From positions 1-46,114 of the IMG/VR virus record IMGVR_UViG_3300044996_000047: a DNA stretch of 46,114 nucleotides, one strand, 5' to 3'. This stretch comes from a virus. Of the stretch, positions 5,664 through 38,623 are shown in pieces (within the stretch, counting starts at the first letter, position 1; each line of letters starts with the position of its first letter). The notes under the pieces were generated by a model. That model worked only from the letters and a program-made list of their open reading frames with translations. It did not search any database and was not told the origin of the DNA. The translations under genes and the position numbers were made by a program.

Positions 5664-5674
5664 CTCTATATCCG
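5664..5674 (-). promoter_or_regulatory. CGGATATAGAG element
   Basis: A variant of the recurring CGGGTATAAAG element, directly before the coiled-coil gene and after the clamp-loader stop. Its AGAG part overlaps the probable ribosome site, so it may be translational instead of a promoter. Confidence 0.3.
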
Positions 5675-6645: not shown

Positions 6646-8040
6646 CTATGCTGCCTTGAACTTTTTCTTCTTGAACCAAGACTCCCCAGGAGGGGCCACC
6701 TCAAACTCTACGTCAAGTGGAACTTTCAACCAGGTCCAGGTTCTACCTATTTCTGAAATCATGATCTCTTGCGCTAGTTCGATGAACTGCTTCAGTTCCC
6801 CTTCGGCAACCATGGCGAGGATGCTGTCGTGGATCTGCGCCACCAAGTAGGACTTCATCCCCTTGCGCTTCATCTCTTCTGCCAGCCGGTAGAATGATCT
6901 CAAGCAACAATGGAAGGCGGAGCCTTGGACTGGATAGCATACCACGTCACGAGGGTACATGACGCTGAAGTATCTGAAGCCCGTCAGTGAATCAAAGTAT
7001 CCGCGCTGCGCATACTCCCTCACCCATCTCTCTTTCCACTCACGGTGTTCGGACAGCCGGTCAAACCAGAATATCTGGTCTTCCTTTTGTACCAAGGTTT
7101 CGTATGCATTGGGATCACCCCGGAATTGGGGAGACAGGTGGTCATATCCTTTGGACTTCAGATGATCCAGCAGCCTCCTACCATCCTTCATCCTCAGCCC
7201 ATCGGGCTTTGTCAATTGTCTCCACAAAGCCCTTGCGATGTTTTGAGGGACTGATCCATAGAACTTGGCAAACACGTTCTTGTTCTTTGCCTCGTGGCGA
7301 ATCTCCTTGGTGACTTCCGAAGCCGGAAGCAAGAACAAGTCCATAGCAGAATCTCGATGCATATCAGTGGACTTGTCTAATATGTATCGGATGAGGTGAG
7401 AGTCCCCCGAGTATGACGCATTGACTCTCACTTCTAGTTGGCTGTAGTCACTCTCCACCATCTGAAATCCGGGCGGGGGAAGGAAGGCTGATCGGATGAT
7501 CTCTCCGCACTCTGGATCACGGATGGGCATGTTCTGAAAGTTGGGATTGGAGGAGGATGACCTGTACGTTCTGGTGGTATGAAGGTCAAAGGAGGGGTGG
7601 CAGATTCCTTGGTGGGTTGCGCGCAGTATCCCCTCCAGATAAGTCCCGGAGACCTTCAGCCACTTCCTCATCTCCAGCACGGTTTCCAGCACTGGAAGTT
7701 GGGGGCAAAGGTCTTCCAGCACTTCATCGTCTACTGCTTTGGACCCACCCTTGGTTTTCTTTTCCGATGGAAACTTCTTGACCACGAACAGCATGTGTGC
7801 CAACTGGTCGTTGGCGTTGAGGTTGAACTCTCTCCCGAATGTTCCTTGCCAAGACTGGCAGAACTCATCCTCCATGCAGATGGCCTGAAGCTCTTTGATC
7901 TTGATCTGTATTCCGGTCAGGGCTTGTTGACAGTAGGGAACGTCAACCGGAATCCCCCTCAACTCAGCCTCCGCCATCGCCACGATACCTTTGTGGAACA
8001 GCTCAGCTGCTTGTGGTAGAAGTGGAGTGGGTCCCATCAT
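6646..8040 (-). CDS. Family A DNA polymerase, polymerase domain only
   Basis: Replicative polymerase of the PolA family. Seen: motif A VESDYSQLEVRV (Asp near 198), motif B RHEAKNKNVFAKFYG (Arg near 248), motif C QIHDSI (Asp near 405). Motif C reads HDS where the family norm is HDE. At 464 residues it contains thumb, palm and fingers only. The 3'-5' exonuclease sits in the separate upstream gene fused to a glycosylase, and the 5' nuclease is a third gene. The start ATG overlaps the UDG-exo stop (ATGA), so both parts are made together and probably form one complex. Confidence 0.93.
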   Translation of the reverse strand: MMGPTPLLPQAAELFHKGIVAMAEAELRGIPVDVPYCQQALTGIQIKIKELQAICMEDEFCQSWQGTFGREFNLNANDQLAHMLFVVKKFPSEKKTKGGSKAVDDEVLEDLCPQLPVLETVLEMRKWLKVSGTYLEGILRATHQGICHPSFDLHTTRTYRSSSSNPNFQNMPIRDPECGEIIRSAFLPPPGFQMVESDYSQLEVRVNASYSGDSHLIRYILDKSTDMHRDSAMDLFLLPASEVTKEIRHEAKNKNVFAKFYGSVPQNIARALWRQLTKPDGLRMKDGRRLLDHLKSKGYDHLSPQFRGDPNAYETLVQKEDQIFWFDRLSEHREWKERWVREYAQRGYFDSLTGFRYFSVMYPRDVVCYPVQGSAFHCCLRSFYRLAEEMKRKGMKSYLVAQIHDSILAMVAEGELKQFIELAQEIMISEIGRTWTWLKVPLDVEFEVAPPGESWFKKKKFKAA

Positions 8041-9269
8041 ACTCCAATCTTCCTTCTTTGGTGTAGGGCCAGCAGTAATTCCATTGCGGCATCGATGCCG
8101 TTGTATTTCAGCAAGTCTTCCGAATGTATCAGATGGATGCGGTTGGGTAGGTTTGGATCGTTGTCGGGGCTGGAGAGGAAGTTGTCAACATCCCCGCTCC
8201 AGTTTCTCGCCCCCAACTGCACAAACGATTCCCACTTCAACGAGTGTATGCCGGTTCTGTGATCAATCACGTGGCTCTGCACCACGGTATCCCAAGCCCA
8301 TCCCTGCACTTCCACTCCTAGCTTGACTGCCGACCATTGATGCTCAAACTTGAGGTTGGCTGCGATCTTGCGCACTGAAGGGTCTGCCAGCAGTGCTCTT
8401 AGGTGAGGCTCTATATCTGGGTGGAGGAGGAAGGCAACGGCTTCTCCTGGCGTACTGGATATGGCGCAGGACACTATCTTGGCGTGGGGAGCATATGGGC
8501 GGATTCCGGTGGTCTCATAGTCGAAAGCAATCACCGGAGCCGTGATGGCGTCCAGATACTGATTGACTTCCGCCGGGTTGTGTATCACTTCCACCTTGAT
8601 ATTGTTTGGGTCCGGGGGGAGAGGCTGCTGGAGCTTTTGCAGGGCCTGATAGATGTCCAGCTTGAAGACGGTTCTCACTTGGGGATGCTTGGCCTCATAC
8701 AAGATGTATGATGGGTGATAGGTTGCCACTACCCAGCAGTTGTTTTCGTGGTCTGGGATTTGGAATCCCCTCCAGTGCTCCACGCTGAACTCTTCTGCCC
8801 TTACCCTCCCACCCCAGTAGGATTTGATGGCAGTTCCCCCAAGCAGCATTACCAGTTTGGGAGGATGATCCCTCATCTCCTGTTGCCAGATGAAACGACA
8901 GGCTTCCACTTCCTCTGGCTCGGGAGTACGATTGCTGCCGTCACTGTTGGTGGGCCGGCAGTTGACAGCGTTGATCTTTCTGGCGTGAGAATCTAGGTCC
9001 AGTCCCAGTTCTTGTAGCACGTCTCTCAGCACCTGCCCAGCCGGACCCACCAGCTGTACCCCCGCCCCATCCTCCACTTCTCCGGGGGCTTCTGCGATGA
9101 ATAGGATGGGCAGAGAGCCTAGCCCGGAAGGTGGCATCCTGGGGGACTTGACGTTGCGGAAGAGTTTGCAAGCTCCCCCGCAACGTGCGGCTCCAATCGG
9201 GTTGCCTGACCGCTTTTCCGGGGGCAGGCACTCGTTCAATTGGGCCCTGCTGAAGAAGCCCTTGGGCAT
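8037..9269 (-). CDS. Family-4 uracil-DNA glycosylase fused to a 3'-5' proofreading exonuclease
   Basis: Two enzymes in one chain of 410 residues. Residues 25-215 form a UDG4 domain: FIAEAPGEVED, VQLVGPAGQVL, the LLGGTAIKS strand, ATYHPSYIL, and four Cys (about 30, 34, 104, 124) placed to hold a 4Fe-4S cluster. Residues 240-410 form a DnaQ/PolA-type exonuclease: ExoI FDYETTG, ExoII AANLKFEHQW, ExoIII YNGIDAAMELL. The start ATG overlaps the clamp stop (TGATG). Inference: proofreading and uracil removal are delivered in trans to the adjacent polymerase. It lacks an RRTVP tag. Confidence 0.9.
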   Translation of the reverse strand: MPKGFFSRAQLNECLPPEKRSGNPIGAARCGGACKLFRNVKSPRMPPSGLGSLPILFIAEAPGEVEDGAGVQLVGPAGQVLRDVLQELGLDLDSHARKINAVNCRPTNSDGSNRTPEPEEVEACRFIWQQEMRDHPPKLVMLLGGTAIKSYWGGRVRAEEFSVEHWRGFQIPDHENNCWVVATYHPSYILYEAKHPQVRTVFKLDIYQALQKLQQPLPPDPNNIKVEVIHNPAEVNQYLDAITAPVIAFDYETTGIRPYAPHAKIVSCAISSTPGEAVAFLLHPDIEPHLRALLADPSVRKIAANLKFEHQWSAVKLGVEVQGWAWDTVVQSHVIDHRTGIHSLKWESFVQLGARNWSGDVDNFLSSPDNDPNLPNRIHLIHSEDLLKYNGIDAAMELLLALHQRRKIGV

Positions 9270-12271: not shown

Positions 12272-13717
12272 TCAGAATGGAGGGATGGTCAGGGAATATC
12301 CCAGAGCACCCTCAAGCAAATCCGCCCGGAAGTCGTCACCAGGAACATAACTCCAAACCACTCCGTCAGCGTCGTGTCCAACCGGAGTGATGCCTGGAGA
12401 CCACGCGGGTGAATAGGCTTCCCCGGTCCCCTCGCAATTCCACTTCATCCAGACTTCCCGCTTGAGGGCATCGGAGAGGAAGCCCCCGTGATTTTCAACC
12501 ATAGCCACAAAGTCGCACCACCGTGTTGGGACGTGTCGGCGGGAGATGATGTAGCGGGAAGCTATCACGGTACAGCCAAAGTTGAATCCGGCCCCTCTGC
12601 TTCTGAAGTACGGTCCCACTTCGCAGCAGATGGAATCGTTGTTGATTGGGGCGCACCCCATATCAAAGGAGGAAACACTGAAGCCCTGATTCTTGAAGAC
12701 GTCCATAAAGGCGGACAGCAGCAAGGAGCCTAGCCCCTGACTGTCAGCCCCCAGGTCATACAGTCTGTCGTAGTCGATGCCTTCATTGATGAAGGCCTGG
12801 CGGATTCCTGGATTGGTTGCGGTGTACGAGTAGGTGTCAAAGGTGATGTGTCTCACGCCCACATCCCGGACTCTTTGGATGTACTCCCCCACATCTTCCT
12901 TCTTGTCGTTGATGAATACCAGAAACGGCTCTATGCGTGCCACCACTTCCACTCCGGCTTGGATGAGGTTGCGGGCGGCTTGTAGACGGGCAGCGAAGGA
13001 AGGTGCGCCTGGTTCCAGGGATTGAATCAAATCCTCTCGACAGGTGATCATCGTGATGTGGACGGCGGCTCCGCCTTTGTTGCGGCCCAGTGCGCTGGCG
13101 TATGCCGGCTCCCCTACCAAGTCCGATTTGGTGTTGATCATCAGCGGGTAGGATTGGTCAGCTAGATAGTTGAGGAGCTTGAGGGATACTCCTGCGGCCC
13201 TCTCTTCATACAGGAAGTCCTCAAACCGGATTCCAAAGCGCACCGGAATTTGCATTGCAAATGCGCGCTTGATCTCGCTGGAGTGGGACTGGGGATCAGT
13301 GCCGCGAACTGTCATCAGCTTGTCCAATTCTCGGCAGTGAGAATCCGTGTTACAGTGGCGCAGCCCCATTGTCTTGGCGTTGTCGAAAAATGCCGTGTAG
13401 AGGGAAGCCCGGAAGGCGTTGGCGAAGCAGTACTTGCAACCAAACGGGCAGAGCAGTCCATCCCAGATGTCCATATTCAAGGGCATCGGGCACGCGCCAG
13501 CACGGCAGGACACTTCAACAAACGAGTTGATTTCACTCGTGTTGAGTAGACGTTCTTGAGGCACCATCTCCCCGGCGGAGACGTTGAATTGGCTGTAGTT
13601 GCGCTTCCTTCCCTTCTCTCTCACCGCAGAAACGTGACGGCGGTGTTGGATGAGTTGAGTCATCCGGGGGTGGAGCTTCGCAACCTGGTCCCTCAGTTCC
13701 CAGTAATCGTACATCAC
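12272..13717 (-). CDS. Radical SAM enzyme 1 (SplB-like)
   Basis: Seen: the 4Fe-4S signature CPFGCKYCF (C-x3-C-x2-C) near residue 90, a strand LMINTKSDLV like that of spore photoproduct lyase-type enzymes, and a second Cys group (DMGCAPINNDSICCEVG and FNFGCTVIA) near residues 375-410 that could bind another cluster. Length 481 residues. Known: SplB-like radical SAM proteins act on nucleic-acid bases or peptides through a 5'-deoxyadenosyl radical. The start codon overlaps the upstream stop (GTG at 13717 or ATG at 13714 within GTGATG). With the second radical SAM gene, the glycosyltransferase and the DUF362 protein it forms a coupled cassette. The substrate is unknown. Confidence 0.82.
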   Translation of the reverse strand: MMYDYWELRDQVAKLHPRMTQLIQHRRHVSAVREKGRKRNYSQFNVSAGEMVPQERLLNTSEINSFVEVSCRAGACPMPLNMDIWDGLLCPFGCKYCFANAFRASLYTAFFDNAKTMGLRHCNTDSHCRELDKLMTVRGTDPQSHSSEIKRAFAMQIPVRFGIRFEDFLYEERAAGVSLKLLNYLADQSYPLMINTKSDLVGEPAYASALGRNKGGAAVHITMITCREDLIQSLEPGAPSFAARLQAARNLIQAGVEVVARIEPFLVFINDKKEDVGEYIQRVRDVGVRHITFDTYSYTATNPGIRQAFINEGIDYDRLYDLGADSQGLGSLLLSAFMDVFKNQGFSVSSFDMGCAPINNDSICCEVGPYFRSRGAGFNFGCTVIASRYIISRRHVPTRWCDFVAMVENHGGFLSDALKREVWMKWNCEGTGEAYSPAWSPGITPVGHDADGVVWSYVPGDDFRADLLEGALGYSLTIPPF

Positions 13718-14136
13718 GCACCAAAGGTATGGCCATCCACCTTCACTTGAAACAGGAAGGCGGGGCCGTTGCCGTTATTGGCGGTGATGTCGATGGTGTC
13801 CACCGCCGGGGGTTTGCCCCTCGTCAACTCTTGAATCTCAATCAAGTGGTTGACGATGTAGATAGACAGCTGCTTTACCATCTCCATCCTACGTTCCCCT
13901 GGGATGGTATTCTGCGCGGCCTCCGTCACTCCGAATCTGGAGTTCACCCGCTTGCGGATGGAGACTCCCTGCTCTTCAAGCATCTCCAGAAGAGCCTTGT
14001 TGGATGAGGCCTGGACTATCTCTCGCCCCTCCTCATCGATGACTCGCGCCTCGTGGTTGGTCGGCTTCCTGGTGATCAGGATGGCATCCGGGAAAAGCCG
14101 CTTCACCGTTTCTTGGAGTTGTTCCGTTGGCGTCAT
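13714..14136 (-). CDS. Hypothetical protein between the two radical SAM genes, 140 aa
   Basis: Not recognised. The helical N-terminus (EQLQETVKRLFPDAILI) is followed by a strand (EARVIDEEGREIVQASS) and a middle helix (MEMVKQLSIYIVNHLIEIQ). No metal motif is present. It is coupled to radical SAM 1 by a GTGATG overlap and lies 17 bases after radical SAM 2, so it may be an accessory subunit or substrate carrier of the cassette. No normal ribosome site is seen: GGGGTATAAAG stands where one would be. Confidence 0.6.
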   Translation of the reverse strand: MTPTEQLQETVKRLFPDAILITRKPTNHEARVIDEEGREIVQASSNKALLEMLEEQGVSIRKRVNSRFGVTEAAQNTIPGERRMEMVKQLSIYIVNHLIEIQELTRGKPPAVDTIDITANNGNGPAFLFQVKVDGHTFGA

Positions 14137-24587: not shown

Positions 24588-24616
24588 CCCCGGCTGGGGG
24601 TCCACCCCAGCCGGGG
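24588..24616 (-). terminator. 12-bp perfect hairpin after the DUF932 gene
   Basis: Arms CCCCGGCTGGGG and CCCCAGCCGGGG with a five-base loop, just after the DUF932 stop. There is no T-run, so it is a strong hairpin of terminator, processing or attenuator type. It overlaps a possible 18-codon leader frame for the ribbon-helix-helix gene. Confidence 0.55.
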
Positions 24617-24628
24617 CATTCCTAGTCA

Positions 24629-25621
24629 TTAGGCGGCAACCAAGTCCGGGGTGCTAAGGAAGTCCAGCACCCCAGTCTTGAGGTCCGCCCGTCCGCCGGT
24701 CACCGTGTCCCAGTGGAATCGGGCGGGGTCTTGGCGGGTGCGCTCGTGGTCGATGATGAAGGTGATGGCGTTGAGCAGACCGTATCGGGAGTGAGCGGTG
24801 GCCAGGTCTAGCCCCTGATCGGAGTTGAACTGGTTGCGCACGGCGGCTCTCCGTGCGTCGATGATCTCCCGCTTGCGCTCCCCGTCCGTCTTGAGGACGG
24901 GGAAGGTGAAGGCAAGAACCTTCTCCACTTCCACGTCCGTCATCGGGAGTCCCGCCAGGTGGTTGAGCAGTTCCTCCTGGGCCTTCAGCCCCATCAGAGT
25001 CCCCGCCATCTCCTGGCAGTACTCATCCACCTTCTTGGTCACGTTCCCTACGTGGGCCCACTTGCGGAGGGACTGGTTGGCTGCGCCCTCCGATTCCGCC
25101 GCCCGGAGGGTGTTGTTGCAGACCACTCGCACGTTGTGTACGCACGCCCGGTAGGCTCCGCTGCCCAGGGGGTTGGCGTACATCATCCGTGAGTAGGAGG
25201 GGGATTTGTCCCCCTTGATCTGGAACTCCTTGGTCCTCAGGTTGATGAAAGCCGTCTGGTTGTTCCACAGTGTTCCCGCTCCCTCAATCACCAGGTCGGG
25301 AAACACCGCCAGCAGATTCTCGTTCAGGAAGTTGGCCATGAGGCGGTTGCTCTCCGCCACATAGCCCTCCCCCACGTGGTGCACCAGCACATGACGAGTA
25401 TCCCGGCGTAACAGCGCCCAGGCCTTCACCGGGAAGGTCGTGCGCCTGGCTCCCGGTCGGTGGTCTTGGAAGAACAGCGGGACTTTGTCAATGTCCCAGT
25501 TGAAGACTTCCAGAACCTGCGTGATGGTCAGGGGCCGGTCCTGCGTGATGTAACGCGGATTCTTGTGCCAGGTATCGCCCCAGATGACTCCTGCGTCGTG
25601 TTCGAGGATTCCTGCTGCCAT
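24629..25621 (-). CDS. DUF932 phage/plasmid protein
   Basis: A 330-residue protein of the DUF932 type found on phages and plasmids, function unknown. Seen: an N-terminal W..NP segment, an R-x-D turn (LLRRDTRHVLVHHVGEGYVAESN) and the characteristic CVHNVRVVCNNTLRAAE stretch. It has its own promoter (25644-25673), a CAGGAGACGGGCA ribosome site and a hairpin after the stop, so it is probably a separate, well-expressed early unit. It contains GARRTTFPVKA near residue 60, which resembles the RRT tag but lies in a conserved strand and may be chance. Confidence 0.75.
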   Translation of the reverse strand: MAAGILEHDAGVIWGDTWHKNPRYITQDRPLTITQVLEVFNWDIDKVPLFFQDHRPGARRTTFPVKAWALLRRDTRHVLVHHVGEGYVAESNRLMANFLNENLLAVFPDLVIEGAGTLWNNQTAFINLRTKEFQIKGDKSPSYSRMMYANPLGSGAYRACVHNVRVVCNNTLRAAESEGAANQSLRKWAHVGNVTKKVDEYCQEMAGTLMGLKAQEELLNHLAGLPMTDVEVEKVLAFTFPVLKTDGERKREIIDARRAAVRNQFNSDQGLDLATAHSRYGLLNAITFIIDHERTRQDPARFHWDTVTGGRADLKTGVLDFLSTPDLVAA

Positions 25622-26801: not shown

Positions 26802-27539
26802 TTACAGAGTCTCGGGGTCAGGGGCGCACAGTCCCGCGTTCCCCCCGTAGTTGTCCACGACCTTCTTGAGCTCCGCCAGAAGGCTCTTGTAGTCTTCCTT
26901 CCGGGAGCCAGCGAGCTTCTCCAGCACGGCTTCCACTTCCGTCTTGATCTTCCCCACGATGCGCCGCCCGTTCTCCTCCTTCCTCACCACCTTGAGGTAG
27001 GGATCATTGGCTGCGTACCACGTATCGCATCTGGAACCTTGGAAGGACTCCCCGTTGAACTTCACGTTCTGGCTTTCCCGCTCATCGTTCTCTTTGAACT
27101 TCAGGGCGATGCGCGTGCCCAGAACCCTGGAGACCGTCCATTCCCCTTGGATGGTCGGGTCTCCCCAGTGGTGGTGAAACACCTTCACCATCTTCTCCCC
27201 CGGCTGGAGCATCCTCCGAAGGGTCTCACTCAGTCTCGACTTCTGGTGCCACTCCAGATTGTCGTAGTCCATGGTCAGCAGCATCGTCTGCAGCTCATTC
27301 GGAGTCTGGTTGGCGGGGAGAGGAAGCTGGATGGTGGTCCCGCTCCCGTAGAGGAACTGAAGCCCCCGGTTGATGTCGTCTGAGAACCGGGAGAAGGTCT
27401 GCGCCGTCTCGTTGATGACGCTTCCCTTGGTGTTCTTGAGGATGCGTAGGTATCCGTTCCAGGTGGCCGGTCCCGGCCTGCCGCTGGCGATGGCCATTGC
27501 GTTGGCCAAGTCTTCGACTGCGTACGGGGTCTTGTTCAT
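26802..27539 (-). CDS. Hypothetical early protein, 245 aa
   Basis: Not recognised. Begins MNKTPYAVEDLANAMAI and contains an Arg/Leu-rich helix (RLSETLRRMLQPGEKM) and a C-terminal helix (EVEAVLEKLAGSRKEDYK). The ATG at 27539 has AACAACCAAGGAGAC just upstream. The frame is open for 17 more codons (from GTGATG at about 27590) within the duplicated leader, so an extended form is possible. First gene after the promoter/operator copy A. Confidence 0.6.
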   Translation of the reverse strand: MNKTPYAVEDLANAMAIASGRPGPATWNGYLRILKNTKGSVINETAQTFSRFSDDINRGLQFLYGSGTTIQLPLPANQTPNELQTMLLTMDYDNLEWHQKSRLSETLRRMLQPGEKMVKVFHHHWGDPTIQGEWTVSRVLGTRIALKFKENDERESQNVKFNGESFQGSRCDTWYAANDPYLKVVRKEENGRRIVGKIKTEVEAVLEKLAGSRKEDYKSLLAELKKVVDNYGGNAGLCAPDPETL

Positions 27540-27543
27540 CGGG

Positions 27544-27642
27544 GTCTCCTTGGTTGTTTCGGGTTGATCCTTTTCCGCCTTCATCACCACCCATCCTACC
27601 TAACGGACCACTGGTCCGTAAAGAAAAAAATTTCACTATTTT
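27544..27642 (-). promoter_or_regulatory. Duplicated promoter/operator/leader, copy A
   Basis: This 99-base block is nearly identical (one mismatch) to 31826-31924. It contains an AT-rich upstream stretch, TTTACG (complement 27617-27622), an 18-base spacer holding a perfect palindrome ACGGACCA-C-TGGTCCGT (27603-27619), TAGGAT (complement 27593-27598), and a leader ending in AACAACCAAGGAGAC. This is the form expected for a repressible early promoter. The AT-rich part overlaps the last codons of the transglycosylase-like gene. Confidence 0.6.
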
Positions 27643-28025
27643 TTGGTACGAAACCCCCATTGTCTATTCATCGAAGTTGACTTGGGGTCAATTTCGACCA
27701 TAGCCTGCTTCACTTTCCGCCAGTACCCCCTCGTGGAAGCCTCTCTCGCGCCATCGGGTCCGCCGTTCCAGGTGCGGGCGATAGCCTCTGGGGTCTGGGC
27801 TCCGTAGATGTGGGCGTATGCCCTCACCGCCCAGGCCGATAGCGTGGAGTCCCGGAAGTCCCAGAGCCGGTAGGAAGTCCCGAAGTGGCGGTTGATATCC
27901 ACGACGGCGGCTGGGCGGATTTGGAACATCCCCACCGCACGCTCCCGGTGGTTGTATGCGCGGGGGTCTAGCCCCGACTCCGTCATCGCCATCGCGCAGA
28001 GGAGGATTGAGATGGAGTTGGTCAT
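27636..28025 (-). CDS. Lytic transglycosylase-like protein, 129 aa
   Basis: Peptidoglycan-cutting fold of the SLT/lysozyme type. Seen: CAMAMTESGLDPRAYN with the probable catalytic Glu near residue 15, the AVGMFQIRPAAV motif, and AIARTWNGGPDG, in the usual order. The product is short and has no clear signal peptide beyond a weakly hydrophobic start. The ATG at 28025 overlaps the upstream stop (ATGA). Its place among early accessory genes, not tail or lysis genes, is unusual. It could be a small endolysin, or a virion-entry enzyme located out of module. Confidence 0.65.
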   Translation of the reverse strand: MTNSISILLCAMAMTESGLDPRAYNHRERAVGMFQIRPAAVVDINRHFGTSYRLWDFRDSTLSAWAVRAYAHIYGAQTPEAIARTWNGGPDGAREASTRGYWRKVKQAMVEIDPKSTSMNRQWGFRTKK

Positions 28026-31506: not shown

Positions 31507-31821
31507 TTACTCGTGATAGCAAGCCCACATCGCGCTGGAGGCGCTGGGGTAGCAATTCTGGTGGGACAGAAGTCCGGGCTTGACGGTGTCCGGGGTGACT
31601 ACCCAGACGCGGATGGGGGTGAGGCGGCGGGGAGCCGTCGCTGTAACGCTGCGGACTTGGTGGGTGGTCCCGTTTGGATCCTTGACTGAGTAGACGGTGA
31701 TACTGTGGTGTCCTTCTCCGGGGAAGTACATCTCACCGTGCCAGGTGAGTCCGCCTACCGTTTTGGAGGCTATTGGACGGTGGTTGCATTGGGCCAGTTC
31801 CTCGGTGGTTCTGATCTTCAT
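31507..31821 (-). CDS. Hypothetical early protein, 104 aa
   Basis: Not recognised. A beta-rich, His/Tyr-containing product (LTWHGEMYFPGEGHHSITVYS). ATG at 31821 after AACAACCAAGGAGACGGAG. The frame is open 17 codons further into the duplicated leader, exactly as for the gene behind copy A. First gene after promoter copy B. Confidence 0.55.
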   Translation of the reverse strand: MKIRTTEELAQCNHRPIASKTVGGLTWHGEMYFPGEGHHSITVYSVKDPNGTTHQVRSVTATAPRRLTPIRVWVVTPDTVKPGLLSHQNCYPSASSAMWACYHE

Positions 31822-31825
31822 CTCC

Positions 31826-31924
31826 GTCTCCTTGGTTGTTTCGGGTTGATCCTTTTCCGCCTTCATCACCACCTATCCTACCTAACGGACCACTGGTCCG
31901 TAAAGAAAAAAATTTCACTATTTT
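31826..31924 (-). promoter_or_regulatory. Duplicated promoter/operator/leader, copy B
   Basis: Same block as copy A with one mismatch: AT-rich stretch, TTTACG (complement 31899-31904), palindrome (31885-31901), TAGGAT (complement 31875-31880), and leader with AACAACCAAGGAGAC. It drives the unit running from 31821 towards 27636. Confidence 0.6.
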
Positions 31925-32034
31925 ACAGCGCGAAATGGCCTGATTCTATTGGCCAAAGTCAAGCTCACGGCGTTTTCACCCCATCAGGAAGCCCAATCCC
32001 TCACCAATCCCCCCGATACCAATGAAATACCCCA
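31925..32034. other. Intergenic stretch before promoter copy B
   Basis: About 110 bases with no convincing frame. It holds only a short inverted repeat (TGGCC...GGCCA near 31940-31960) and an AT-rich end. Confidence 0.5.
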
Positions 32035-34262: not shown

Positions 34263-34597
34263 GACGGGAATCTCACTGTGCGTCGGGGAGAGGAGGGGGA
34301 GAACAGCGCCTTCTCCTCCTTATCCAATTGGGATTTGATTGCACGCCATTGCTCTTCAGCACGTCGGGAGAATGCCATCAGGGTTTGCATTTCCTCTTTC
34401 GTATCGCAAACCGCCTTGACGTTCCAGCGGGCAACCCAAGAATCCCTTGGCAAATCCCCCTCCCAACGAGGCACCCCGTGATAGCAGATGCGGGTGTTGG
34501 TGATCTTGGTGATCCTTCCCAAAAGCATAAACCGTCCCCACTCCGTGCCCGTGGAGTCGAAAAGGATGGCGCCAACTCTGGGAGTCTTGGTGATCAT
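34259..34597 (-). CDS. Hypothetical protein with C-terminal RRTV tag, 112 aa
   Basis: Not recognised. A beta-rich first half (VGAILFDSTGTEWGRFMLL, RICYHGVPRW), an acidic/basic helix, and the last residues SPRRTVRFPS. Start ATG overlaps the stop of the 55-residue gene upstream. Confidence 0.6.
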   Translation of the reverse strand: MITKTPRVGAILFDSTGTEWGRFMLLGRITKITNTRICYHGVPRWEGDLPRDSWVARWNVKAVCDTKEEMQTLMAFSRRAEEQWRAIKSQLDKEEKALFSPSSPRRTVRFPS

Positions 34598-35331: not shown

Positions 35332-36105
35332 ATGAGCTCAAGAAGGACAGTTCCAATCTCCCCTGCGGCAGTGCTATCTGATGAGGAAAGGGATGGACTT
35401 ATCCGGGCGCAGAATGCCCGCAATAGGGGTGGGCCGCCAAGGGGGGTAAGTCCTAGAAGAAGCTGGGGGAATCCCTATATCCCTCAAAGAAAATCAGATC
35501 GCACCATACCATTTCCAACTGAGCTCGTGGATGAGGACGGGAAGCCCCTAGAGCCGCTGACGCCGGAGGAGTATGCTTTTGTCTTGGAGATGCTGAAGAA
35601 TGGAGGGAATGCAACCAAGGCGTACTGTGTAGCCTATCCCGGAAAGGTGAGGAGGAATGAGGAGGGGAAGGTGTTGAGCTGGGTTGGTTTGGACGCATGC
35701 GCGGTGGTGCGCAGGCCAAGTGTTTCCAAGCACCTGAAAGCAGCGCGGGAGATGTTGTTTGCACAACAGGTGGCCGGCACCGTGGAGCGTCAAGCAATCC
35801 TCTCCGGTCTAGCCCGAGCGAATGCTTTGGATTTTGTTGAGGTGGGGGCGGACGGCACTCCAAAGTACAACTTGGATCCAGAGCACCCCAACGCCATGGC
35901 GATTCGGGGGGTGACCTTTGACGAGTCCTATGACCGTAACGGAATCCTCATCAACCGCAAGACCGGGTTCACCTTGGCGGACCCCGTGAGGGCGATTGAT
36001 ACCCTGAACCGGATGGAGGGGCTGTACAAGGATGAGGGGGGCGGAGAGGGGCGTGTACCAGTCCAAGTCGTGATCAATCTCGGGGACCAAGAAAAGAGCT
36101 TTTGA
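35332..36105 (+). CDS. terS: Terminase small subunit-like protein
   Basis: 257 residues. It begins with the tag MSSRRTVPISPAAV and has a second related stretch KSDRTIPFPTEL. A helix-turn-helix/terminase_2-type segment follows (LKNGGNATKAYCVAYPG... RRPSVSKHLKAAREML), typical of small terminases that bind packaging sites. The C-terminal region, with VTFDESYDRNGIL, resembles other phage small terminases. It precedes the structured gap at 36.15 kb and, further on, the large terminase. DNA recognition is inferred. Confidence 0.75.
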   Translation: MSSRRTVPISPAAVLSDEERDGLIRAQNARNRGGPPRGVSPRRSWGNPYIPQRKSDRTIPFPTELVDEDGKPLEPLTPEEYAFVLEMLKNGGNATKAYCVAYPGKVRRNEEGKVLSWVGLDACAVVRRPSVSKHLKAAREMLFAQQVAGTVERQAILSGLARANALDFVEVGADGTPKYNLDPEHPNAMAIRGVTFDESYDRNGILINRKTGFTLADPVRAIDTLNRMEGLYKDEGGGEGRVPVQVVINLGDQEKSF

Positions 36106-36111
36106 TCCAGT

Positions 36112-36120
36112 CGGGTATAG
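36112..36120 (+). promoter_or_regulatory. CGGGTATAG element (+ strand)
   Basis: Seven bases after the small-terminase stop and just before the structured region. Same motif as on the minus strand but in the rightward direction. If it is a minus-10 element, the transcript would start at about 36125. Confidence 0.4.
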
Positions 36121-36149
36121 AGCGTCAGTGAGAATGGTAGTCATAGGTG

Positions 36150-36620
36150 TTTGGGCTTCTGGCGTTGGGCTGCTTGGCCAACACCATTCCGCCAATGACA
36201 GCCTAACGTCTCCCGGTCGGGAGAACAGAAGCCCGTTTGACTCTCCGGCTCCCCTCGTGCTCTATCGTTCACAAGTGGAGGACTCTGTGCCTCCAGCCAT
36301 GGAGCCTTGCCAATCGCCAATCGGCGGTTTGGCCTGGAGGGAGTCGGCCAAAGGAAACCGCGCAACCCCACGTGGTCGGGGCGACTGCGCGAATGAACGC
36401 CAAACATTCGCCCGTGCCGGCGTCTGGAAGTGGGAACGAGGCCAGTGCAGGCGGGTTGCGCCCGCAAGGTGCCCAGCGGCACTCCAAGTTTGATCTTGGT
36501 TGCACTGGGGGACCACCACCTTCATCCACTCCAAGCCGGGATACCTTCTCCACTGACCGGTCGCAATTGAGCGACGTTCCCCAACCAGGGAAACCGGAGA
36601 AGCCCCGGCACGAGTGGTCA
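36150..36620 (+). ncRNA. Candidate large structured RNA or packaging site
   Basis: About 470 bases without a convincing gene. Open frames on both strands lack domains and natural composition. Perfectly complementary arms are dense: GGGCTTCTG (36153) with CAGAAGCCC (36226), enclosing GTTGG/CCAAC and TCTCCC/GGGAGA hairpins; CCTCGT (36253) with ACGAGG (36436), enclosing TGGAGG/CCTCCA, TTTGGCC/GGCCAAA and CGCGCA/TGCGCG; CCAGTGCA (36442) with TGCACTGG (36500), enclosing GCGGG/CCCGC, GTGCC/GGCAC and CCAAG/CTTGG; and CCACTC-GCCGGG-CTTCTCC (36526-36551) with GGAGAAG-CCCGGC-GAGTGG (36596-36617), enclosing two more hairpins. Successive closed multi-branch domains suit an RNA. A cos/pac DNA site is the alternative. 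Confidence 0.6.
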
Positions 36621-36650
36621 AAGAGAGTGCAAGATGGATGAGGGCTTGCG

Positions 36651-36857
36651 GTGAAAGAGTACGACATGCTGACTGGAAGGTGGGTTGATATCCATCGCCC
36701 GTACCGCGCCAGACCCAACAAGAACGGTTGCCCGCTTTGTCCCAAGAGATGCGGAGGAAGATCAAGTGAAAGTGTGCCTGCGTTGCGATCATCGGACCTG
36801 GTGTCCCAGGGTAAGCCGCCCACCGCTGGGCTTTTGCGAAAACTTCCGGCGGGATGA
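36651..36857 (+). CDS. Small Cys-containing protein, 68 aa
   Basis: GTG start after GAGGGCTTGCG. MKEYDMLTGRWVDIHRPY, then CPLCPKRCGG, a short zinc-type motif. Its last 90 or so bases overlap the next gene in another frame and look less protein-like, so the functional part may be short. Family unknown. Confidence 0.45.
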   Translation: MKEYDMLTGRWVDIHRPYRARPNKNGCPLCPKRCGGRSSESVPALRSSDLVSQGKPPTAGLLRKLPAG

Positions 36858-36975
36858 TCAGTCGAAAGCGCTGTTGATCTTCCTTGGGTGGTTGGGCTTC
36901 CTGGTGATAGTGGGGCTGATGTGCTACATCATCGCCACCTGCGAGCCGATTGATTGCGTGGGAGTTGGACGATGA
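36766..36975 (+). CDS. Zinc-motif membrane protein, 69 aa
   Basis: GTG start with GGAGGAAGATCAA upstream. The N-terminal Cys group (KVCLRCDHRTWCP, GFCENF) is followed by one transmembrane helix (ALLIFLGWLGFLVIVGLMCYII) and a Cys-rich end. Overlaps the next ATG by ATGA. Family unknown. Confidence 0.6.
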   Translation: MKVCLRCDHRTWCPRVSRPPLGFCENFRRDDQSKALLIFLGWLGFLVIVGLMCYIIATCEPIDCVGVGR

Positions 36976-37316
36976 AGTGCTACCTGTGCAACACGGAGAT
37001 GACGCCGCACCCAATGGCGAAGGATGCGGTGGGGTGCAACAACCGGGATTGCCTACTTTGGTTTGCCCGCATCCCCGGAGACGCCTACAAGCAGCTGCTG
37101 GAGAAGGTGGAGAATACTCGTGGAGCAAGAGCCAAGTGGCTCCGGGAGATACTCACTCACCCCGGCGGCGGTTCCTTGTGCGGGCTTGAGTATCTCCAAG
37201 CCATCAGGATGGCCGCTGATCTACTGGACACCCCTGATCACGAGTTGGCAAAGGGCACGAGCGTAGAGTTGCGCCAACTCCACTCCCGCCTCAAGTTCCA
37301 TCTGGATCGCAAGTAG
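36972..37316 (+). CDS. Zinc-finger-type small protein, 114 aa
   Basis: Starts MKCYLCNTEM with the second pair in VGCNNRDC, a short zinc knuckle, followed by helices (AYKQLLEKVENTRGARAKWL; LEYLQAIRMAADLL). Stop overlaps the large-terminase GTG by one base (TAGTG). Unknown; its position suggests a role with terminase. Confidence 0.6.
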   Translation: MKCYLCNTEMTPHPMAKDAVGCNNRDCLLWFARIPGDAYKQLLEKVENTRGARAKWLREILTHPGGGSLCGLEYLQAIRMAADLLDTPDHELAKGTSVELRQLHSRLKFHLDRK

Positions 37317-38623
37317 TGTCCAATCGCCCGCCACCGGGAGCAGGCAGACCCTACCGCAAGGTGGTGGTTGACTCCTCTGCTTGGAAGAAGAATCCGGCGC
37401 AGTTGAGGGTCATCAGCAACATTCTCTGCGACCCCGGCTTCACCAGCATCCTCCTTTCGGGCGGCTCCCGATCTGGCAAGACGTTCTTGCTGTTGTATGC
37501 GATGGTGGTGAGGGCTTTGAAGCACCAATCCCGCCACCTCATCTTCCGCAAATACTTCAACCACGCCAAGCTCTCCATCTGGCATGAGACGCTGCCCAAG
37601 GTGATGAGCGTCTGCTTCCCCGGACTCCCCTACCACCGCAACGCCAACGACTTCTTCTATGAGTTCAAGAACGGCAGTACCATTTGGTTGGCCGGCTTGG
37701 ATCAGAAGGAACGCACGGAGAAGGTGCTGGGGCGCGAGTTCAGTACGGGGTTGTTTGACGAGTGTAGTGAGATGGGATTCAGTGAGGTCCAGACGGCAAG
37801 CACCCGGTTGGCGGAGAAGAACCCACTACGCAAGATGCGGTACTACACGTGCAATCCTCCAGGCAAGCAGCATTGGTCATACAAGCTGTTCTATCGCCAC
37901 CTGAACCCGATTGACCTTCAGCCCGTCCACAACCCGGATTCCTACGCCTATGACACGATGAATCCAGAAGACAACGTGGATAACATCGACAAGGATTACA
38001 TCGACAACATTCTCAAGCCGCTATCGTACCGGGCACGGATGCGCTATTGGAAGGGGTTGTGGCTGGATGACGTTCCTGGCGCCCTCTGGACTGGAGACAT
38101 GATTGAAAAGACTCGGGTTGCCTCTGCCCCAGATACGTTGGAGTGGGTGGACGTTGGGGTTGATCCCGGAGTGAGTACCGGGGAGAAGTCTGACGCAACG
38201 GGTATCGTGACGGTTGGTTGGCGGTTGGGACACTGCTACGTTCTGAAGGACTCCACGCTGAAAGGCTCCCCGCTGGCTTGGGGCACCAAGGTCATCGATG
38301 ACTATGAGGAGCTTCAGGCGGATAGCGTGGTGGGGGAAGTCAACAACGGCGGGGACTTGGTTGAGAGCAACGTCCGGGCGATTGATCCTCACGTCAAGTT
38401 CATCAAGGTCCACGCATCGAGGGGCAAGGCTATCCGGGCGGAGCCGGTTGCAAACCTGATGGAGCAGGGGAAGTTCCACGTGGTTGGACAATGGCCGGAC
38501 CTTGAAGCAGAGATGACGGGTTGGGTGGACGGCTGCGGCTGGTCCCCGAATCGGATGGATGCTATGGTGTGGGCGGCTTGGAGGCGCATGACCGTCAAGA
38601 AGCGTGCCCGGAGTCTTGGATGA
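37316..38623 (+). CDS. terL: Terminase large subunit
   Basis: ATPase-nuclease that packages DNA. Seen: Walker A GGSRSGKT near residue 50, Walker B TGLFDECSEM near 145 with the catalytic Glu, the coupling motif TCNPPGKQHW, and nuclease acidic residues in VDVGVDPGVS, VVGEVNNGGDLV and PNRMDAMVWA. 435 residues, normal for the family. The GTG start overlaps the previous stop. Confidence 0.93.
   Translation: MSNRPPPGAGRPYRKVVVDSSAWKKNPAQLRVISNILCDPGFTSILLSGGSRSGKTFLLLYAMVVRALKHQSRHLIFRKYFNHAKLSIWHETLPKVMSVCFPGLPYHRNANDFFYEFKNGSTIWLAGLDQKERTEKVLGREFSTGLFDECSEMGFSEVQTASTRLAEKNPLRKMRYYTCNPPGKQHWSYKLFYRHLNPIDLQPVHNPDSYAYDTMNPEDNVDNIDKDYIDNILKPLSYRARMRYWKGLWLDDVPGALWTGDMIEKTRVASAPDTLEWVDVGVDPGVSTGEKSDATGIVTVGWRLGHCYVLKDSTLKGSPLAWGTKVIDDYEELQADSVVGEVNNGGDLVESNVRAIDPHVKFIKVHASRGKAIRAEPVANLMEQGKFHVVGQWPDLEAEMTGWVDGCGWSPNRMDAMVWAAWRRMTVKKRARSLG

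Follow-up and report, generated by a model that had tools for sequence, protein, structure and literature searches.

A candidate structured RNA at the head of the packaging operon of an uncultured tailed phage

What, if anything, is carried by the 545-base gap (36106-36650) between terS and the small-gene/terL cluster of an uncultured tailed phage? In this 46.1-kb record (IMGVR_UViG_3300044996_000047, analysed over its full 46,114 nucleotides and called the window here), the genes as far as ~35 kb, with those for polymerase, helicases and topoisomerase, point leftward; from 35.3 kb on they point rightward, in the order terS, small genes, terL, portal and head genes (Table 1). An original prediction had placed a gap of roughly 500 bases directly after the small terminase and taken it for a candidate undescribed structured noncoding RNA, or else a cos/pac packaging region; the gap is indeed there, running from where terS stops (36105) to about 36651, and we put the probability that it holds a real, undescribed, lineage-restricted structured RNA, whatever its role, at about two in three. 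Both the original prediction and we favour such an RNA, in our case because the gap matches no Rfam family, appears to be non-coding, shows changes in a relative that keep base pairs on the + strand, and is preceded by a recurrent promoter-like element.

Table 1 Features of the locus, with positions in the window (structural parts as predicted)
Feature	Position	Strand	Details
terS, terminase small subunit	35332-36105	+	PHROG 51, E 3.3e-6; upstream neighbour of the gap
CGGGTATAGAG, recurrent promoter-like element	36112-36122	+	Just 5' of the structured region; putative promoter
Domain 1	36153-36234	+	9-bp closing stem 36153-36161/36226-36234, long hairpin 36162-36209, hairpin 36210-36223
Domain 2	36240-36347	+	Closing stem 36245-36256/36337-36347 round two hairpins
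Middle part	36360-36514	+	Hairpins 36389-36411 and 36468-36514; pairing otherwise uncertain, helices weaker
Last domain	36517-36629	+	19-pair arm round hairpins 36560-36575 and 36577-36592, plus outer stem
Small ORFs 36651, about 36767, 36972	36651-37316	+	Function unknown; downstream of the gap
terL, terminase large subunit	37316-38623	+	PHROG 979, E 6.7e-50

Comparison with Rfam 15 covariance models returned no match to the gap at gathering score, so that the word 'undescribed' stands; relaxed to E values of up to 10, the search gave only H19_3 and CRISPR-DR29, both far below their gathering scores, and no described match was found among terminase-linked structured RNAs in the literature. 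A tRNA/tmRNA search found none in the window. Homologues of the gap were absent from phage records searched by blastn, and exact patterns from the gap, sought in viral contigs, recovered only L001 (IMGVR_UViG_3300024300_000069), which is 95% identical over 479 bases and is the sole close relative found (a 19-mer pattern match in another locus, L109, most probably arose by chance). No further homologue emerged when blastn, nhmmer and two covariance models were applied to about 100 loci, for the most part terL relatives, or when relatives by polymerase or terL were searched across their entire records, and the use of terS, portal and ORF 36972 as bait for relatives yielded L001 only or nothing. 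As far as seen, the element would appear to be confined to this lineage, with only two sequences known.

Modelled from the window sequence alone, with a pair span of at most 130, the gap is predicted to fold into four main parts, that is, domain 1, domain 2, a weaker middle and a final arm. The complementary arms and closed domains that had been described are present, two hairpins being enclosed by a 9-bp stem in domain 1 and two by the stem 36245-36256/36337-36347 in domain 2, and the 19-pair final arm (36526-36551/36596-36617) agrees with the earlier description to the base, its runs of six (36526-36531/36612-36617), six (36535-36540/36604-36609) and seven pairs (36545-36551/36596-36602) being interrupted by small internal loops. 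Against dinucleotide shuffles, domain 1 (36153-36234) reaches a z score of -6.65, with 0 of 200 shuffles as good, domain 2 (36240-36347) reaches -3.31 (-4.29 for the L001 copy), the last domain (36517-36629) -4.58 (-5.02 for the L001 copy) and the hairpin 36468-36514 -2.39; the middle (36355-36465) is no better than chance (-0.66). The energy of the whole gap (z -3.16 on the + strand and -4.37 on the - strand) is by itself weak evidence, because coding stretches of the same genome reach similar values: a 436-base stretch holding an ordinary-looking 140-amino-acid ORF (13714-14136) attains -3.2, and a 180-nt scan of the genome has its 5th percentile at about -2.7, with a broad tail. Shuffle-controlled folding, which the original prediction had proposed as a check, thus bears out the single domains, where the folding signal is concentrated, leaves the whole gap weak (z -3 to -4, matched by coding stretches) and goes against the unremarkable middle. 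Other structured candidates, near 13.7 and 24.5 kb, turned out to lie inside open frames.

The comparison with L001, whose alignment starts 3' of the first 55 bases of the gap and of the promoter-like element there, bears on the pairing itself. In a placement test, pairing was predicted from one sequence and the observed substitutions were set against randomly placed ones, scored for broken and compensated pairs. When pairing was kept local, with spans of up to 120, P on the + strand was 0.0006 for the window structure and 0.0002 for the L001 structure, compared with 0.12 and 0.02 on the - strand; with a span of 60 or without limit, the + strand gave 0.004-0.02; and under a different alignment, of all 5 kb common to L001, the + strand of the gap (P 0.003) supplied the lowest two of 64 tests. 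The 22 substitutions in the gap touch 11 pairs of the window-only model, nine of which are kept on the + strand, and nine fall at unpaired positions. Two pairs are kept by double changes (36253-36339, C-G to A-U; 36277-36294, G-C to U-A) and seven by one-sided changes between Watson-Crick and G-U on the + strand, and both broken pairs fall in the weak middle part. The covariation that had been named as a further check is therefore found in part, from one relative: the nine kept pairs speak for it and the two broken in the middle against it, and the covariation proper consists of two double changes between sequences 5% apart, one of these changes hinging on the placement of an indel in the alignment.

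These changes are spread over the predicted domains. Domain 2 contains two double compensatory and three one-sided pair-keeping changes, and a one-base deletion in its closing stem is offset by neighbouring changes, giving a perfect 11-bp stem in L001; domain 1 has U-A to U-G at 36165-36206; and the last domain has U-A to U-G at 36549-36598 together with an A to G change at 36587 that lengthens a hairpin. The middle part is highly conserved (36383-36469 is identical in the two sequences), and over 36161-36252 and 36383-36636 only 6 of 346 bases are changed, less than the synonymous divergence seen nearby (0.06-0.18). The - strand of the gap also folds well, with a weak placement signal; the strand asymmetry of the tolerated changes, which form G-U on the + strand only, favours an RNA over a DNA structure. 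A single close relative can thus yield strand-specific structural evidence for an orphan RNA.

How might such an RNA be made and used? The CGGGTATAG noted in the original prediction just before the structured region was found at 36112, where CGGGTATAGAG has its only perfect copy. With up to two mismatches allowed, CGGGTATAGAG has 18 matches versus 6.8 expected (a count reached by 0 of 100 shuffles), and 17 of the 18 are on the coding strand, often about 10-30 bases ahead of a start codon. At several genes the element and the preceding gene's stop codon overlap, which is not so at 36112. Relatives retain the core of the element at the covered junction sites, once with both flanks changed. GGGTATA(A/G)AG-like elements stand near gene starts on the coding strand at 5664, 12034, 14141, 17940, 21039 and 30383 (- strand) and at 36112 and 39377 (+ strand), and resemble a phage promoter element in which no -35 can be recognised. 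Between 35000 and 37400, neither a sigma-70-type promoter nor a terminator-like site was found.

An element directly 5' of the structured region, together with the lack of a terminator-like site, fits a leader. We infer that the element acts as a promoter and that the packaging/head transcript has the gap as its first 500 nt; transcription would run rightward through the gap from a phage promoter, its recurrent element CGGGTATAGAG lying at 36112, and the resulting modular RNA of ~500 nt would fold into three closed domains of several hairpins each, the pairing of its middle being less certain. The folded RNA would be the 5' leader of the transcript for the small genes, terL, portal and head genes, and might be cut free later. 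Its most likely action would be in cis on that transcript, as in RNA-encoded antitermination leaders, either allowing RNA polymerase to read through the long operon or setting terminase gene expression or stability. The promoter identity of the element, accumulation of the RNA and the cis role are all inferred, and we rank first, as a tentative choice, a structured leader that acts in cis on the packaging/head operon.

Ranked next is a free-standing phage noncoding RNA that acts in trans, either as a large ornate RNA or as a packaging RNA working with the terminase/portal motor, which we regard as possible yet doubtful. The domain z scores, placement tests and kept pairs serve this reading equally well, as does the position between terS and terL, and abundant long noncoding RNAs do arise from gene-free gaps in ICP1 (PMC7567579) and phage K (PMC9241854). 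Against it stand the absence of a terminator-like site at the 3' end and of an Rfam match and tRNA gene; for a packaging RNA in particular, the known example comes from phi29-like phages, whose motor is of another kind, whereas ordinary TerS and TerL are found here. That the ~500-nt RNA from the head of the terminase operon represents a new class tied to the TerS/TerL motor, taking part in or required for DNA packaging or head assembly, is graded as highly doubtful.

The gap could be an ordinary intergenic or regulatory stretch with chance GC-rich hairpins, or a decayed remnant, in which the kept pairs are coincidental; the genome is GC-rich with ordinary stretches reaching z of about -3, and there is one informative relative with no homologues further away. 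Given the z score of domain 1, a placement test for the gap that is the lowest of 64, and conservation of most of the gap below the synonymous rate, we consider this improbable. The same conservation, the position beside terS and terL, and inverted-repeat structure on both strands would also suit a DNA element, a packaging site (cos or pac) in which the DNA itself forms the structure that terminase binds and no RNA has a function. This we judge quite unlikely, as the gap has no direct repeats or iterons, the record has no terminal repeats, the seven kept one-sided changes would be mismatches on the other strand, and the placement test favours + over -; a cos/pac site may nevertheless lie within the same stretch as the RNA.

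The open frames across the gap (121 and 134 amino acids) lack domains, as had been stated: neither PHROG nor Pfam gave a match for ORFs in the gap, and codon use in 36106-36560 is unlike that of the genes of this genome in any frame. A conserved protein frame with synonymous bias was looked for, and what was found is a dN/dS of about 0.9 for the 121-amino-acid frame against L001, and two single-base indels in L001, 24 bases apart, that shift any frame. The gap is thus best read as non-coding, and a small protein gene starting just after CGGGTATAGAG, at 36128 or 36134, is most improbable on these same grounds, despite the open frames and the spacing of about 10-30 bases by which the element precedes start codons elsewhere. 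For comparison, the small ORFs downstream of the gap have dN/dS of 0.27-0.54 versus L001, and a PHROG/Pfam search assigned them to no confident family.

Several other features of this phage and its relatives were observed. The peptide motif S-R-R-T-V-P (RRTV core) is shared by 9 different predicted proteins and has 11 occurrences in all, compared with 0.22 expected from residue-shuffled proteins, at 35341, 38646 and 39422 on the + strand and at 34285, 33352, 32271, 32199, 30462, 21009, 20940 and 1019 on the - strand. It lies at the N-termini of TerS and portal, at several C-termini and in Pro/Ser-rich stretches, its codons differ each time, and it is kept at 4 of 4 covered sites in the relative L111, with synonymous changes at two; it looks like a phage-wide short linear motif, possibly for docking, targeting or cleavage. 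The DNA polymerase seems to be split (6646-9269), with two adjacent ORFs matching successive parts of PHROG 17. A 143-nt direct repeat (27535-27677 and 31817-31959; 86% identity, 4.3 kb apart) lies at gene starts and is in part present twice in L111 as well, and a perfect 12-bp GC-rich hairpin on the - strand (24590-24645), placed either where a short ORF begins or between genes, is a possible terminator or regulator. L001 carries an inserted gene (L001:1158-1824) between ORF 36972 and terL that is absent from the window and looks like a putative DNA methyltransferase with a DPPY motif.

Large structured phage RNAs are few and their function is mostly unknown, and an RNA at the head of a packaging operon beside a recurrent phage promoter-like element would offer a direct handle on the function of such RNAs. 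Large phage noncoding RNAs are already known as a kind (PMC7567579, PMC9241854, PMC12286853); what is new here is an orphan variant in an unusual place. GOLLD and ROOL, which phages and prophages carry, are large RNAs that fold into several domains and encode no protein (PMC12286853), a description that the gap candidate would share. The kinship with GOLLD and ROOL that had been suggested is not supported: no covariance model matched the gap, the candidate sits in a packaging operon in a window without tRNA or tmRNA (proximity to tRNA genes being typical of GOLLD and ROOL, not obligatory), and at about 500 nt it is smaller than most GOLLD RNAs, many of which exceed 800 nt. GOLLD and ROOL also form RNA-only multimers, whereas the candidate is known from sequence alone. 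By the tests made, the candidate falls outside GOLLD, ROOL and pRNA.

The candidate resembles the roughly 800-nt noncoding transcript of ICP1 (PMC7567579) and the lncRNAs of phage K (PMC9241854) in coming from a long gene-free gap of a tailed phage, outside classical RNA families, and the ICP1 transcript also in lying where a late-type gene cluster begins and in the lack of tRNAs. Those RNAs were seen by RNA-seq, whereas ours is a prediction from the genome, and the likeness was compared only through blastn of phage records, which found nothing. With phi29 pRNA the candidate shares its nature as a structured phage RNA placed with packaging genes; it differs in lacking an Rfam match and in its setting, TerS and TerL families being found here in place of a phi29-type motor. 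The pRNA is also much shorter than the ~500-nt candidate. The put antitermination RNA of HK022 is a structure of about 70 nt with two stem-loops, formed where early phage transcripts begin, directly behind the promoter. The candidate, with its proposed antitermination role, would likewise follow a putative promoter, but it would extend over about 500 nt at the head of the packaging/head operon.
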